From the NCBI GenBank assembly GCA_017512175.1, contig JAFWHA010000017.1, forward strand, positions 124,001-188,000: DNA of 64,000 nt, in the 5' to 3' direction. Numbering within the stretch: position 1 is the first letter of the stretch; each line of letters begins with the position of its first letter. Both the position numbers and the translations under genes were made by a program. The notes under the pieces were generated by a model. It searched no databases and was not told the DNA's origin. It saw only the letters and a program-made list of their open reading frames with translations. This document shows positions 34,107 through 39,802 of this stretch, piece by piece. The stretch is from Candidatus Saccharimonadota bacterium. GTDB taxonomy: Bacteria > Patescibacteriota > Saccharimonadia > Saccharimonadales > Saccharimonadaceae.

Positions 34107-34829
34107 GTGAGAAAGGGAATGTCTAACCTTGCGGCTGCAATTATAGTTGCCGTAATAGGTGTCGCGATGATTGGCGGTATAATTTGGGCGGCAGTATCTA
34201 AGAAGGCGAGCGAGCCAGATTTTAGCCAGTATAATGTGAATACGGTTATCGCTGCTAGCGAGGAAAATGGTAATATAGGCGACCACGTAAAAGGTAATCC
34301 AGATGCGCCGGTATTGATTTTTGAGTATGCTGATTATCAATGCTCGGCTTGTGCTGTAGCTAACCCAAGAATCAATAAACTAGTAGATGAATATGGTGAT
34401 AAACTCGGCGTAGTTTATCGTGATTTCTTGCTGTCTTATCATCAGAATGGGACAGCAGCAGCAAGTGCGGCTGAGGCTGCTGGTTTACAAGGCTACTGGA
34501 AAGAATATGCTAATAAACTCTTCACGAATCAGTCGGTTTGGGCTAATGCTTCTGGCGACGCTAGAACAGACGTGTTCGTGGAACTTTTCCGTTCTGCAAC
34601 GAATGGTGAGGGAGATGAAACTAAGTTCGTGCAGGATATGAAGAGCGAAGCAGTGAAGAAGAAAATTAACTTTGATGCGGGTATTTCGAAAAATTTAGAC
34701 ATTCCTGGTACTCCAGCATTCTTTATTGACGGTGAGAGAATTGACTTTTCTAATGCGAAGAACGAAGAAGAATTCTTGAATATCTTCCGCGAGAAAATTG
34801 ATGCGAAACTAAATAAAATAACTAATTAA
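34107..34829 (+). CDS. DsbA-like membrane-tethered thiol oxidoreductase
   Basis: 240 residues from a GTG at 34107 with AAGGAGG (34097-34103) in front. One N-terminal membrane helix (8-30) tethers a thioredoxin-fold domain: the active site FEYADYQCSACAVAN (Cys 79 and Cys 82), then a helical insertion, and the cis-Pro loop IPGTPAFFIDG. This is the DsbA/DsbG-like group of Gram-positive-type secreted disulfide enzymes. The window encodes several Cys-rich exported proteins (4009-7632, the pilins, the lamin-tail protein) that are likely substrates. No DsbB or VKOR partner is nearby. Confidence 0.88.
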   Translation: MRKGMSNLAAAIIVAVIGVAMIGGIIWAAVSKKASEPDFSQYNVNTVIAASEENGNIGDHVKGNPDAPVLIFEYADYQCSACAVANPRINKLVDEYGDKLGVVYRDFLLSYHQNGTAAASAAEAAGLQGYWKEYANKLFTNQSVWANASGDARTDVFVELFRSATNGEGDETKFVQDMKSEAVKKKINFDAGISKNLDIPGTPAFFIDGERIDFSNAKNEEEFLNIFREKIDAKLNKITN

Positions 34830-34845
34830 ATGGTAAATCATAACA

Positions 34846-34877
34846 TCAAAAAACCTCTGGCACCTGTCAGAGGTTTT
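34846..34877. terminator. Bidirectional terminator
   Basis: AAACCTCTG and CAGAGGTTT pair over nine bases around an 8-base loop. On the minus strand the stem is followed by TTTTTT, ending the structured RNA described at 34848-35116; on the plus strand TTTT follows, ending the DsbA-like gene. Confidence 0.88.
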
Positions 34878-35116
34878 GCGCGTTTTACCATAGAAACTTG
34901 GATTCTTTAGCACGGCAAGTTTTATGCTTGCCACCTCCGGCTAGTCAATTTTCGTTTCTATGAACTCTTGCCATGGGGCAGGAGGAATCTGCGACTTTCT
35001 GCGAGAGTAATCTCGCTTGAGTCCGATACGCATATTCTTTAAGTTCGTACTCCTTTTTAATTTATATCGTCCACACGACCAACCCACCAGGTTTGCTGTT
35101 TTTCTTCAAGGACGAC
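34848..35116 (-). ncRNA. Unassigned structured RNA of about 270 nt
   Basis: A TTGCAA-17-TATCAT promoter predicts a start at G35116, and a strong terminator ends it near 34848. The 5' end GUCGUCC pairs with GGACGAU (35072-35066). Further stems are GCGAGA/UCUCGC, a 9-bp long-range pairing CAUAGAAAC/GUUUCUAUG, GGCAAG/CUUGCC and the terminator. It follows no rule of tmRNA, RNase P RNA, SRP RNA or a riboswitch that I know, and no gene lies downstream on its strand. A 30-codon open frame beginning MRIGLKRDYS is present at about 35032-34940, but its SD is 16 bases away. A non-coding role is favoured. Confidence 0.55.
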
Positions 35117-37091: not shown

Positions 37092-37799
37092 ATGACTAAA
37101 TTACAACAAGTTTTTAGAAGGACGGAGACGAAATATATTATTTCGGAAAAAGAATTCCAGCAGCTAATGGAGTTAATTGGACCGTATCTAAAAAAAGATA
37201 AGTACTTTAAGGGTACTAATTGTAGTGTTTATTATGATGATGATAATCGTTATTTAGCGATTCATTCTTTGGAAAAGCCTTTGTACAAGGAAAAGATTCG
37301 CTTGAGGAGCTATGGAATTCCGACTTTAGACGATGTAGTTTTTTTGGAAATTAAAAAGAAGTTTGATGGAGTTGGTAGTAAACGTCGAATTCCAGTGAAA
37401 CTCAAAGATTTTTATTTGTACGAAAAAACTGGAAAACTCGAAACTGAAAATGCGAATATTAAACAAGAGTTGGATGAATGTTTTAGCCGGTATAGATTGA
37501 GGCCAAAAATGTTTTTGGCTTACGACAGAACATCGTATTGCGACAAAGACAACCCTACATTCAGATTAACATTCGATAGAAACGTGAGAAGTCGCAATGA
37601 AGATTTAAGACTGGAATTAGGAGACTATGGAGAGAAGTTTTTTGAGAAAGGAGAAATAGTAATGGAAGTAAAAGCTCTTGATAAATATCCATTTTGGTTT
37701 GTTCGTGCGTTGTCGAAGTTAAAAATATATCCGGCCTCATTTTCTAAATATGGTCGAGTTACGGAAAAAGTAATATATAATAAAGTAAAGGAGAAATAG
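37092..37799 (+). CDS. VTC-domain polyphosphate polymerase-like protein
   Basis: 235 residues made almost entirely of a VTC (triphosphate tunnel) domain: ETKYIIS near residue 12, the basic strands KEKIRLRSYG and FLEIKKKFDGVGSKRR lining the tunnel, YDRTSY, LTFDRNVR and the acidic EVKALDKYPFWF. In yeast the domain makes polyphosphate from ATP. TATAAT (37080-37085) is six bases from the ATG. It leads a three-gene operon with a DUF4956 membrane protein and an anchored carbohydrate-binding-like protein, a set that recurs together in other bacteria. Confidence 0.85.
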   Translation: MTKLQQVFRRTETKYIISEKEFQQLMELIGPYLKKDKYFKGTNCSVYYDDDNRYLAIHSLEKPLYKEKIRLRSYGIPTLDDVVFLEIKKKFDGVGSKRRIPVKLKDFYLYEKTGKLETENANIKQELDECFSRYRLRPKMFLAYDRTSYCDKDNPTFRLTFDRNVRSRNEDLRLELGDYGEKFFEKGEIVMEVKALDKYPFWFVRALSKLKIYPASFSKYGRVTEKVIYNKVKEK

Positions 37800-37801
37800 T
37801 T

Positions 37802-38464
37802 ATGTTTAATAGTATTTTGGGAACAGAACTTACACCGGTGCATTTCTTAATTTGCATTGGAGTGGCATTCGTGCTAGGGCTAATTGTGGCCTTTACGCAT
37901 CAAAAGACCAGTCGTACATCATCAAATTTTGTGATTACATTAGCAATTTTACCAGTGCTAGTGGCAATGGCGATTATGCTAGTGAATGGAAATCTTGGTG
38001 CTGGCGTTGCAACGGTAGGGGTATTCTCGTTAGTTAGATTTCGTTCTATTCCTGGTAACTCTAAGAGTATTCTTTCGGTATTCTTTGCGATGGCAATAGG
38101 CCTTGCGGTCGGTACCGGATACGTTGCTTTTGCGGCAATGTTCACAGTGATTGTGTCGGCGCTGATTCTCTTTCTTAAACTTATTAGGTTTGGCGAAGGA
38201 AAGACTGATGAGAAGAAATTAATTATCCTAGTACCAGAAGATTTAGATTATACAGAAATATTTGATGACGTGTTTGGTAACTATACGAATGCGCACTATC
38301 TAGAAAAATCTAAAACGACTAATATGGGTAGCTTGTTTGAACTTACGTATCGTATCAATTTGAAACGGAATGTTAATGAGAAAGAATTCATTGATAAATT
38401 ACGTGTGAAAAATGGTAATCTTAAAGTGTCCTTATCGCATCCAATTGCTGACGAGGAATTATAA
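37802..38464 (+). CDS. DUF4956 membrane protein
   Basis: 220 residues. About four membrane helices in the first 125 residues, including the family hallmark GVATVGVFSLVRFRSIPGNSKSI, where charged Arg and Ser sit between helices, then a cytoplasmic alpha/beta tail (135-220). AAAGGAG precedes the ATG, two bases after the VTC gene. DUF4956 proteins are commonly encoded beside VTC polymerases; a membrane channel or export partner for the polymer is a guess. Confidence 0.8.
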   Translation: MFNSILGTELTPVHFLICIGVAFVLGLIVAFTHQKTSRTSSNFVITLAILPVLVAMAIMLVNGNLGAGVATVGVFSLVRFRSIPGNSKSILSVFFAMAIGLAVGTGYVAFAAMFTVIVSALILFLKLIRFGEGKTDEKKLIILVPEDLDYTEIFDDVFGNYTNAHYLEKSKTTNMGSLFELTYRINLKRNVNEKEFIDKLRVKNGNLKVSLSHPIADEEL

Positions 38465-38473
38465 GGAGGAATT

Positions 38474-39802
38474 ATGGAAAACACTGATAGAAACTCTATA
38501 GTTGATAATTCTAATAAAGATAGTAAAAAGAATAATATGGGCCGTAATATAGCAATCATTGTAGGAGCAGTGGTCTTAGTAGGCGGTCTAGCCGCAGGTG
38601 GAATTTATCTTGCTACTCATCAAAAACAATCTACGGTAATAGACAGTGGTACATCTGGCAGTATTGCGTTAAAAGATGGTGAAAATAAAATTAAAGCAGG
38701 CGGAACTTATACTTTTACGGGTAGTACTGCAAACGGAAAAATTGAAATTGATACGACGGAAGACGTGAAAATTATCCTGAATAATGTAAGTATTACGAAT
38801 AAGACTGGTGCAGCAATTAAATCTAAGGGAACTTCTGGTAAAGTAGTAATTGAACTTGTGGGAAGCAATACGCTAATTTCTACTGATACGGATACTCAAG
38901 ATCCAGCCGCGGCGGTGTCTGGTGATGCGACAATAGAATTTACTGGCTCGGGCTCGGTAAAGATTGAGTCTAATGGCAAGGGAATTAAAGCGGATAGTGG
39001 CTTGGCGTTAAATAGTGGCAGCTATAATATTACTGCAAAAGATGATAGTCTACATTCTAATGGAAATATTACGATTATTGATGGTACATATATTTTGAAT
39101 ACTGAAGATGATGCAATTCATGCTGATGGGACGTTTAAGACTATTGGTGGAAAAATCGTTATAGAAAAGTCGCATGAGGGGATAGAAGCTAATATTGTCG
39201 AGATTGCTGGTGGGGATATTTCCGTTACGGCATCTGATGATGGCATTAATGCGCAGAATTCAGATGGGACTAATCGAGTGGGTGTCACTGGAGATGGTAA
39301 GTTGGCCATTTCTGGCGGAAAAGTATATGTTAACTCTGGTGGCGATGGTCTAGATTCTAATGGAGCAATCACTATTTCTGGCGGGGAAGTTTATGTTGAT
39401 GGTCCAGTGAATGATGGTAATGGAGCTATTGACTGTGATGGGGAGATTAGCATTACTGGCGGGACATTAGTGGCAGTTGGCTCTGTCGGAATGGCACAGA
39501 ATGCTACTTCTGCAACGCAACCATCAGTACTGATAACTCTAAGTCAGAGCTATAGCGGTAATATAATATTCGGTGGGGTTGCTTATGAGCCTGCTAAGAA
39601 GTTCCAGTCTGTGTTGATTTCTTCTGACAAACTGAAAGTCGGAGATACTTATCAGCTGACCATTGCTGGCAATCAAGTTCAGTCTGTAACGATTTCTGAA
39701 AACATTACAGGACAGGGGAATGGAATGGGCGGTATGATGCCTGGCGGTACTGGTACTGGTGCTAATGGTATGGCACCAAGTAACGCAGGCAGAAGATTTT
39801 AA
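38474..39802 (+). CDS. Anchored carbohydrate-binding-like beta-helix protein (Cthe_2159 type)
   Basis: 442 residues. A charged N-terminal tail, one membrane helix (about 25-47), then a long right-handed beta-helix region (70-340) with repeats such as GKGIKADSGLALNSGSYNIT, DDSLHSNGNITI and DDAIHADGTF, each turn carrying Asp/Asn/His. It ends in a Gly/Met-rich tail. Members of this family bind acidic polysaccharides with calcium. The DGLxSNGxI-like turns supply many carboxylates for metal. AAGGAGG precedes the ATG. Third gene of the VTC operon. Confidence 0.78.
   Translation: MENTDRNSIVDNSNKDSKKNNMGRNIAIIVGAVVLVGGLAAGGIYLATHQKQSTVIDSGTSGSIALKDGENKIKAGGTYTFTGSTANGKIEIDTTEDVKIILNNVSITNKTGAAIKSKGTSGKVVIELVGSNTLISTDTDTQDPAAAVSGDATIEFTGSGSVKIESNGKGIKADSGLALNSGSYNITAKDDSLHSNGNITIIDGTYILNTEDDAIHADGTFKTIGGKIVIEKSHEGIEANIVEIAGGDISVTASDDGINAQNSDGTNRVGVTGDGKLAISGGKVYVNSGGDGLDSNGAITISGGEVYVDGPVNDGNGAIDCDGEISITGGTLVAVGSVGMAQNATSATQPSVLITLSQSYSGNIIFGGVAYEPAKKFQSVLISSDKLKVGDTYQLTIAGNQVQSVTISENITGQGNGMGGMMPGGTGTGANGMAPSNAGRRF

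Follow-up and report, generated by a model that had tools for sequence, protein, structure and literature searches.

A conserved reading frame of about 30 codons in a structured transcription unit of Saccharibacteria, and a possible role of its fold in translation

What fills the 416-nt gap between a dsbA-like gene and aspS, the longest seen between open reading frames (ORFs) of at least 100 aa in a 64,000-nt stretch from a Candidatus Saccharimonadota bacterium? A sequence-only reading of this stretch, hereafter the window, had singled out the same gap as the longest and placed in it an unassigned structured RNA with no downstream gene. The promoter, start point, 5' stem, hairpins and terminator that it named are located where it had placed them. 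On the minus strand, a promoter scan finds a -35/-10-like pair, TTGCAA-17-TATCAT, with TG ahead of the second hexamer, at 35151-35123; transcription is predicted to start near 35116, and the terminator-like stem of an intrinsic terminator lies at 34850-34877. For the region 35116-34848 the folding energy is -76 kcal/mol, with a z of -2.72 relative to 200 dinucleotide shuffles, two of which fold equally well. Motif scans alone remain at the level of shuffles, with 8 promoters against a mean of 6.7 and 3 terminators against 2.1, and the case for the unit therefore rests on comparison and conservation. Homologous loci are preceded by a promoter that resembles that of the window when read by eye. 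The most constant neighbour, the dsbA-like gene (34107-34829, plus strand), is convergent and lies outside the unit; of 92 loci, 60 have it downstream in convergent orientation, 13 downstream on the strand of the unit and 9 upstream, and it is convergent in 30 of 40 further loci. This varying orientation implies that the unit is transcribed on its own. The unit is complete and structured, with its own promoter and terminator.

Rfam 15 gives no match for the window region at the gathering threshold, and permissive thresholds add only chance hits; 20 homologous loci are likewise without a match apart from tRNAs. This bears out the earlier impression that none of the common families (tmRNA, RNase P, SRP, 6S, T-box) is concerned, and extends it to the rest of Rfam. 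In the window, ARAGORN recognises four tRNAs but no tmRNA. The label of an unassigned structured RNA holds in so far as the unit is complete, structured and without an Rfam match, but it misses a conserved coding ORF inside the unit. The absence of a downstream gene is true as stated, and the same ORF was overlooked there.

This ORF (34941-35033, minus strand) specifies 30 aa, MRIGLKRDYSRRKSQIPPAPWQEFIETKID, and follows a Shine-Dalgarno sequence, AAAAAGGAG, at 35050-35058. It is the best-conserved stretch of the unit: an in-frame ORF of 26-39 aa is present in all 91 distinct loci of the genus, and AGGAG precedes it in 86 of them. For 602 pairs of genus proteins that are equal in length and share at least 75% identity, the pN/pS ratio is 0.21. 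Conservation is lowest at third codon positions: it is 0.73 there, versus 0.88 and 0.93, in family f1 outside the genus, and 0.48, versus 0.66 and 0.77, in other families. The predicted protein has a conserved C-terminal motif, W-[QR]-x-[FY]-[IL], and its conservation reaches the last residues. Judging by this codon signature, the unit appears to encode a previously unrecognised protein of about 30 aa under protein-level constraint. Mean GRAVY values are -0.99 in the genus, +0.19 in f1 and -0.40 in other families, and the mean net charges are +4.8, +1.5 (weakly basic) and +5.3, respectively. The AlphaFold model (mean pLDDT 70.9, pTM 0.19) offers no usable fold. Pfam and NCBIfam return no family for three genus peptides and, for 24 peptides from across the order, only single-member hits with E of 0.047 or worse; the best E in the PDB sequence search is 0.53, which points to no relative. 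Phage records queried with one genus peptide and viral contigs queried with the genus profile gave no match. We found no report of the protein or the RNA in a literature search whose scope excluded most subscription journals and all bioRxiv preprints, and an excerpt of PMC10633639 holds nothing on the locus.

Among 60 genomes, BLASTN detects the region in 22: its own, 21 of the 35 others that belong to the genus, and none of the 24 outside it. The ORF is present in 20 of these 22 loci; in the exceptions, L006 and L010, both ends of the protein are retained and the core is different. The genus profile (A1, 20 sequences, E≤0.1) recovers the ORF in 159 of 174 genus genomes, and in 103 of 110 of good quality. 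Of 159 loci, 146 carry the motif ORF and reduce to 92 distinct ones; the 13 without it are L006, L010, L025, L070-L074, L076-L079 and L146. Counts over 91 loci leave out L075, which lies outside the genus; L006 and L010, having no WQE motif, fall outside both this set and the alignment A7 used below. In a profile scan of genome contigs, nearly all of the best 80 of 98 loci belong to Candidatus Saccharibacteria, and one to Candidatus Nanosyncoccus alces.

The dsbA-like neighbour was also traced in 30 genomes that lie outside the genus. At its 3' end, 24 of them have an ORF of about 30 aa; the profile adds one in L211, L190 and L191 have a diverged one (see below), and no small ORF was found in L204, L214 and L218. 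An order-wide profile (A2, 24 sequences, E≤0.01) identifies relatives of about 30 aa, with the consensus MPVKIKIxxSRxxxVEVKVRRPxWQQFLxY, in 163 of the 246 genomes sampled from the order and in 102 of 132 genera. A2 catches one genome of the window's genus and A1 adds 22 more at E≤6e-7, which makes a union of 185 genomes if both profiles drew on one set of 246, as is suggested by the handles they have in common. Forty further loci taken from profile matches all contain the ORF. In a phylum-wide sample of 286 genomes all strong matches lie within the order, and nothing convincing appears outside it (best E 2e-4); the weak matches L259-L262 look like chance, because they have neither a dsbA-like neighbour nor a small ORF ending at the motif.

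Several loci depart from the common pattern. In L006 (1542-1634) and L010 (minus strand, from about 1588) the core QIPPAPWQ is replaced by QESLALGL and HEPLGLGL, while MRIGLKR and EFIETKIV are retained and a hairpin still occupies this place. In one genus of f1, L190 (minus strand, 1302) and L191 (plus strand, 1323) have a diverged ORF of 23-24 aa, e.g. MKKRSRKGTLRVEDALRWNEYIEM, behind a leader resembling P1 and GGTCG (described below), and might represent a link between protein types. Genome G185 contains two copies of the small ORF with equal scores (C15:4542-4625 and C38:1507-1590), and one metagenome-assembled genome likewise contains two (L151 and L152); both cases may reflect redundancy at contig ends.

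Upstream of the ORF, the leader forms a predicted stem, P1 (35066-35116, minus strand), in which GTCGTCC at 35116-35110 pairs with GGACGAT at 35072-35066. The stem begins exactly at the predicted first base of the transcript, as the sequence-only reading had it. A GGTCGT element (35075-35080) ahead of the 3' strand of P1 is found in 122 of 137 leaders; GTCG is invariant in 21 aligned genus leaders, which were themselves chosen for having it. We scored P1 as the best helix between the 5' end of a leader and the stretch after GTCG, and compared it with permuted partners, because MAFFT alignment of leaders of varying length (A3) misaligned the 3' strand. A3 holds 21 of 23 short leaders, without L104 and L137, and cannot itself test P1, since its members were picked because their insert was short and their P1 score good. 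Scoring was possible for 116 of the 137 leaders, the other 21 being without the motif or a recognised -10 element. The mean helix score is 17.3, against 12.8 for permuted partners (sd 0.28, maximum 13.6 in 200 permutations), with relatedness among leaders remaining in this and the following statistics. The excess is seen in 87 genus leaders (16.9 versus 13.9, sd 0.29), in 50 distinct genus stems (17.2 versus 12.9, sd 0.42) and in 29 leaders beyond the genus (18.6 versus 14.2). Variants such as TCGCTC/GAGCGA, GTTGTTC/GAACAAC and GTCGTTC/GAACGAC display the compensatory changes by which the earlier reading had proposed to check its stems. A gapped pattern for the commonest form of P1 matches in 63 of 170 genus genomes, and matches with the full element sit just upstream of the small ORF. 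No second target of such a leader is evident in these 170 genomes: the remaining matches look like chance by eye, and a reversed control matches as well.

In other families the tested leader stem does not exceed permuted partners (43 leaders, with four more lacking the motif), and a second leader type built around GAAGACAAAAACA was rejected on this ground. By eye, the leaders L287-L326 of these families carry an A-rich motif, GAAGACAAAAACA or GAGACAAAAA; it lies some 60-110 nt ahead of the small ORF and often follows a CTTC close to the predicted start. We do not claim sequestration of the Shine-Dalgarno sequence by CTCCT of the ORF. Of 91 genus loci, 63 have AGGAG together with CTCCT, but the latter is also part of hairpin H2, and by eye it is not at that place in the ORFs of f1.

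Two hairpins are predicted within the coding sequence on the minus strand. H1 (34993-35023) consists of an outer GACT..AGTC around GCGAGA-TTAC-TCTCGC, and H2 (34965-34984) of CTCCTGCC-CCAT-GGCAAGAG, with a fold z of -3.0. Among same-length genus sequences (A7, 31 of 34, omitting L022, L101 and L139), 14 cells of the named structure carry changes on both sides, where shuffles give 2.1 (0 of 500), and its covariation score is 0.089 against 0.034. The double-sided changes fall in the inner stem of H1, and H2 has none in these 31 sequences. Two further sets, A6 (35 ORFs) and A8 (48 ORFs), were sorted by regular expression and contain only ORFs that are 30 aa long. In A6, from f1, H2 and a hairpin at the Ser-Arg codons jointly reach 21 cells against 7.0 and a score of 0.226 against 0.129 (0 of 500 for each), while the numbers of changed pairs and of pair types do not exceed those of shuffles (238 and 294 of 500). 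RNAalifold, run unsupervised, predicts most of the same pairs. An additional hairpin in A7, GATAC-ATGC-GTATC, places the start codon in its loop and is present in the window at most in a weak form, by eye; it hardly varies, and covariation thus speaks neither for nor against it.

H2 is reflected in the choice of synonymous codons. Its Pro codon is CCT in 75 of 86 genus loci (17% in background ORFs), its Ala codon GCC in 69 of 91 (29%) and its first Glu codon GAG in 74 of 91 (35%), against only 26 of 90 for the next Glu. In highly expressed rpsL, used as a control over 24 loci, the respective frequencies are 27%, 16% and 46%, a usage that does not explain the codon bias of H2. Similar preferences are found in 36 f1-like loci, with CCT in 26 (22% background) and GCC in 32 (25%). 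The full seven-pair form, CTCCTGCC-N4-GGCAAGAG, occurs in 57 of 91 loci, and two more have an eighth pair. Resampling of synonymous codons over the 91 loci gives a mean hairpin energy of -5.5 kcal/mol, compared with the actual -8.6 (mean z -1.24); the effect is absent from the first nine codons (z +0.2). A hairpin also folds at the place of H2 in L006 and L010, where the amino acids are different. These comparisons indicate that in the window's family the ORF hairpins co-vary or are held by the choice of synonymous codons. By eye, no other family shows this ORF fold, while the protein persists in others.

A further stem joins the end of the ORF to the 3' untranslated region, CATAGAAAC (34962-34954) pairing with GTTTCTATG (34897-34889) on the minus strand over exactly 9 bp, as had been claimed. 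Of the 12 loci among the 91 that have EFIETK in the protein, four (L001, L002, L030 and L120) form all nine pairs, with A-T, C-G and T-A at the wobble position; the other eight form 6-8, as the best match within 190 nt, which might arise by chance.

We consider it probable that the unit is a monocistronic mRNA, with its own promoter and terminator, for an order-specific protein of about 30 aa, and that its fold sets its own translation. Transcription would start at the promoter of the unit and end at the intrinsic terminator, leaving a single cistron. In the window's family, the 5' end of the mRNA would pair with the stretch before the Shine-Dalgarno sequence (P1, beside GGUCG), and two hairpins would form within the coding sequence. 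P1 with GGUCG and the ORF hairpins might together set the use of the start site, by which the mRNA would control its own translation; we infer that the fold tunes the output of a lineage-specific microprotein. Small ribosomal proteins act back on their own leaders. As a guess, the present protein may bind RNA or the ribosome and may likewise feed back on the leader that precedes it. The fullest version of this idea, a ribosome-bound microprotein of the Saccharibacteria order that feedback-regulates its mRNA through a fold embedded in part in its codons, with selection acting on a 90-nt stretch at once for the protein and for the regulatory RNA, is rather doubtful as a whole.

Could the RNA instead be the product that matters? 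A purely noncoding structured RNA with an incidental ORF would agree with the fold z of -2.72, the covariation of P1 and the strong terminator. It is at odds with the in-frame ORF and Shine-Dalgarno sequence in relatives and with the order-wide peptide profile, and the codon signature (pN/pS of 0.21, variable third positions) rules it out, leaving this reading next to no probability. A dual-function RNA, which would encode the small protein and also act in trans or by binding a protein, fares better, though it is still unlikely. It draws on the covariation and synonymous constraint within the ORF, and on L006 and L010, where the hairpin stays in place in the absence of the conserved PxWQ core, a counterpoint to the view that the protein is what is conserved. 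However, the leader pattern gave no second site, and the peptide is common across the order while the ORF fold is seen by eye only in the window's family, which makes the protein more likely to be the primary product.

The small size of the ORF invites two other explanations. A leader or arrest peptide, sensing a signal during its own translation and controlling another gene, would be short, contain Pro and Trp and reside in a structured mRNA, as is the case here. However, a terminator follows the ORF, the dsbA-like neighbour is mostly convergent and seldom downstream on the same strand, no regulated gene was found downstream on the same transcript, and the protein is conserved to its last residues; we regard this explanation as very unlikely. 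A type I toxin with a translation-inhibiting fold would likewise combine a tiny ORF with a structured mRNA. Such toxins are hydrophobic membrane peptides, whereas the genus peptides are hydrophilic and positively charged by the values given above; the ORF is mostly present in one copy per genome and is near-universal in the genus, and its searches against phage records and viral contigs were empty. The toxin reading is accordingly hardly credible.

The self-regulated mRNA for a small protein finds partial parallels among known systems. Bacterial bTHX and mycobacterial bL37 are very small lineage-specific ribosomal proteins. The present protein resembles them in its length (about 25-30 aa), single copy and confinement to a lineage, and in being basic in the genus and distant families; it differs in its conserved C-terminal motif, in being weakly basic in f1 and in having no sequence match in the PDB, which holds many ribosomes. 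Autogenous leaders of ribosomal proteins similarly present a structured, co-varying leader directly before the Shine-Dalgarno sequence of a small gene, and P1 covaries in the genus and in the 29 leaders beyond it; the unit differs from them in matching no ribosomal-protein leader of Rfam and in a fold that reaches into the coding sequence. Like SgrS and tmRNA, the transcript would be under constraint at both the peptide and the RNA level; unlike them, it is not recognised as a tmRNA by ARAGORN or Rfam, and a role in trans would be hypothetical.

A near-universal lineage-specific protein that is absent from family libraries points to an overlooked core function in these ultrasmall episymbionts. 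According to a review (PMC11665869), the ribosomes of Patescibacteria are without three proteins conserved in free-living bacteria, and regulation of translation is likely key in this group and yet unstudied. If the protein is linked to translation and controls itself, it would provide a concrete handle on this regulation. The locus would also illustrate clearly how selection for a peptide can overlap with selection for the fold of the RNA that encodes it.

Elsewhere in the window, three adjacent ORFs lie downstream of aspS on the plus strand (37092-39802); presumably they resemble VTC-type domain, membrane and repeat-rich surface proteins.
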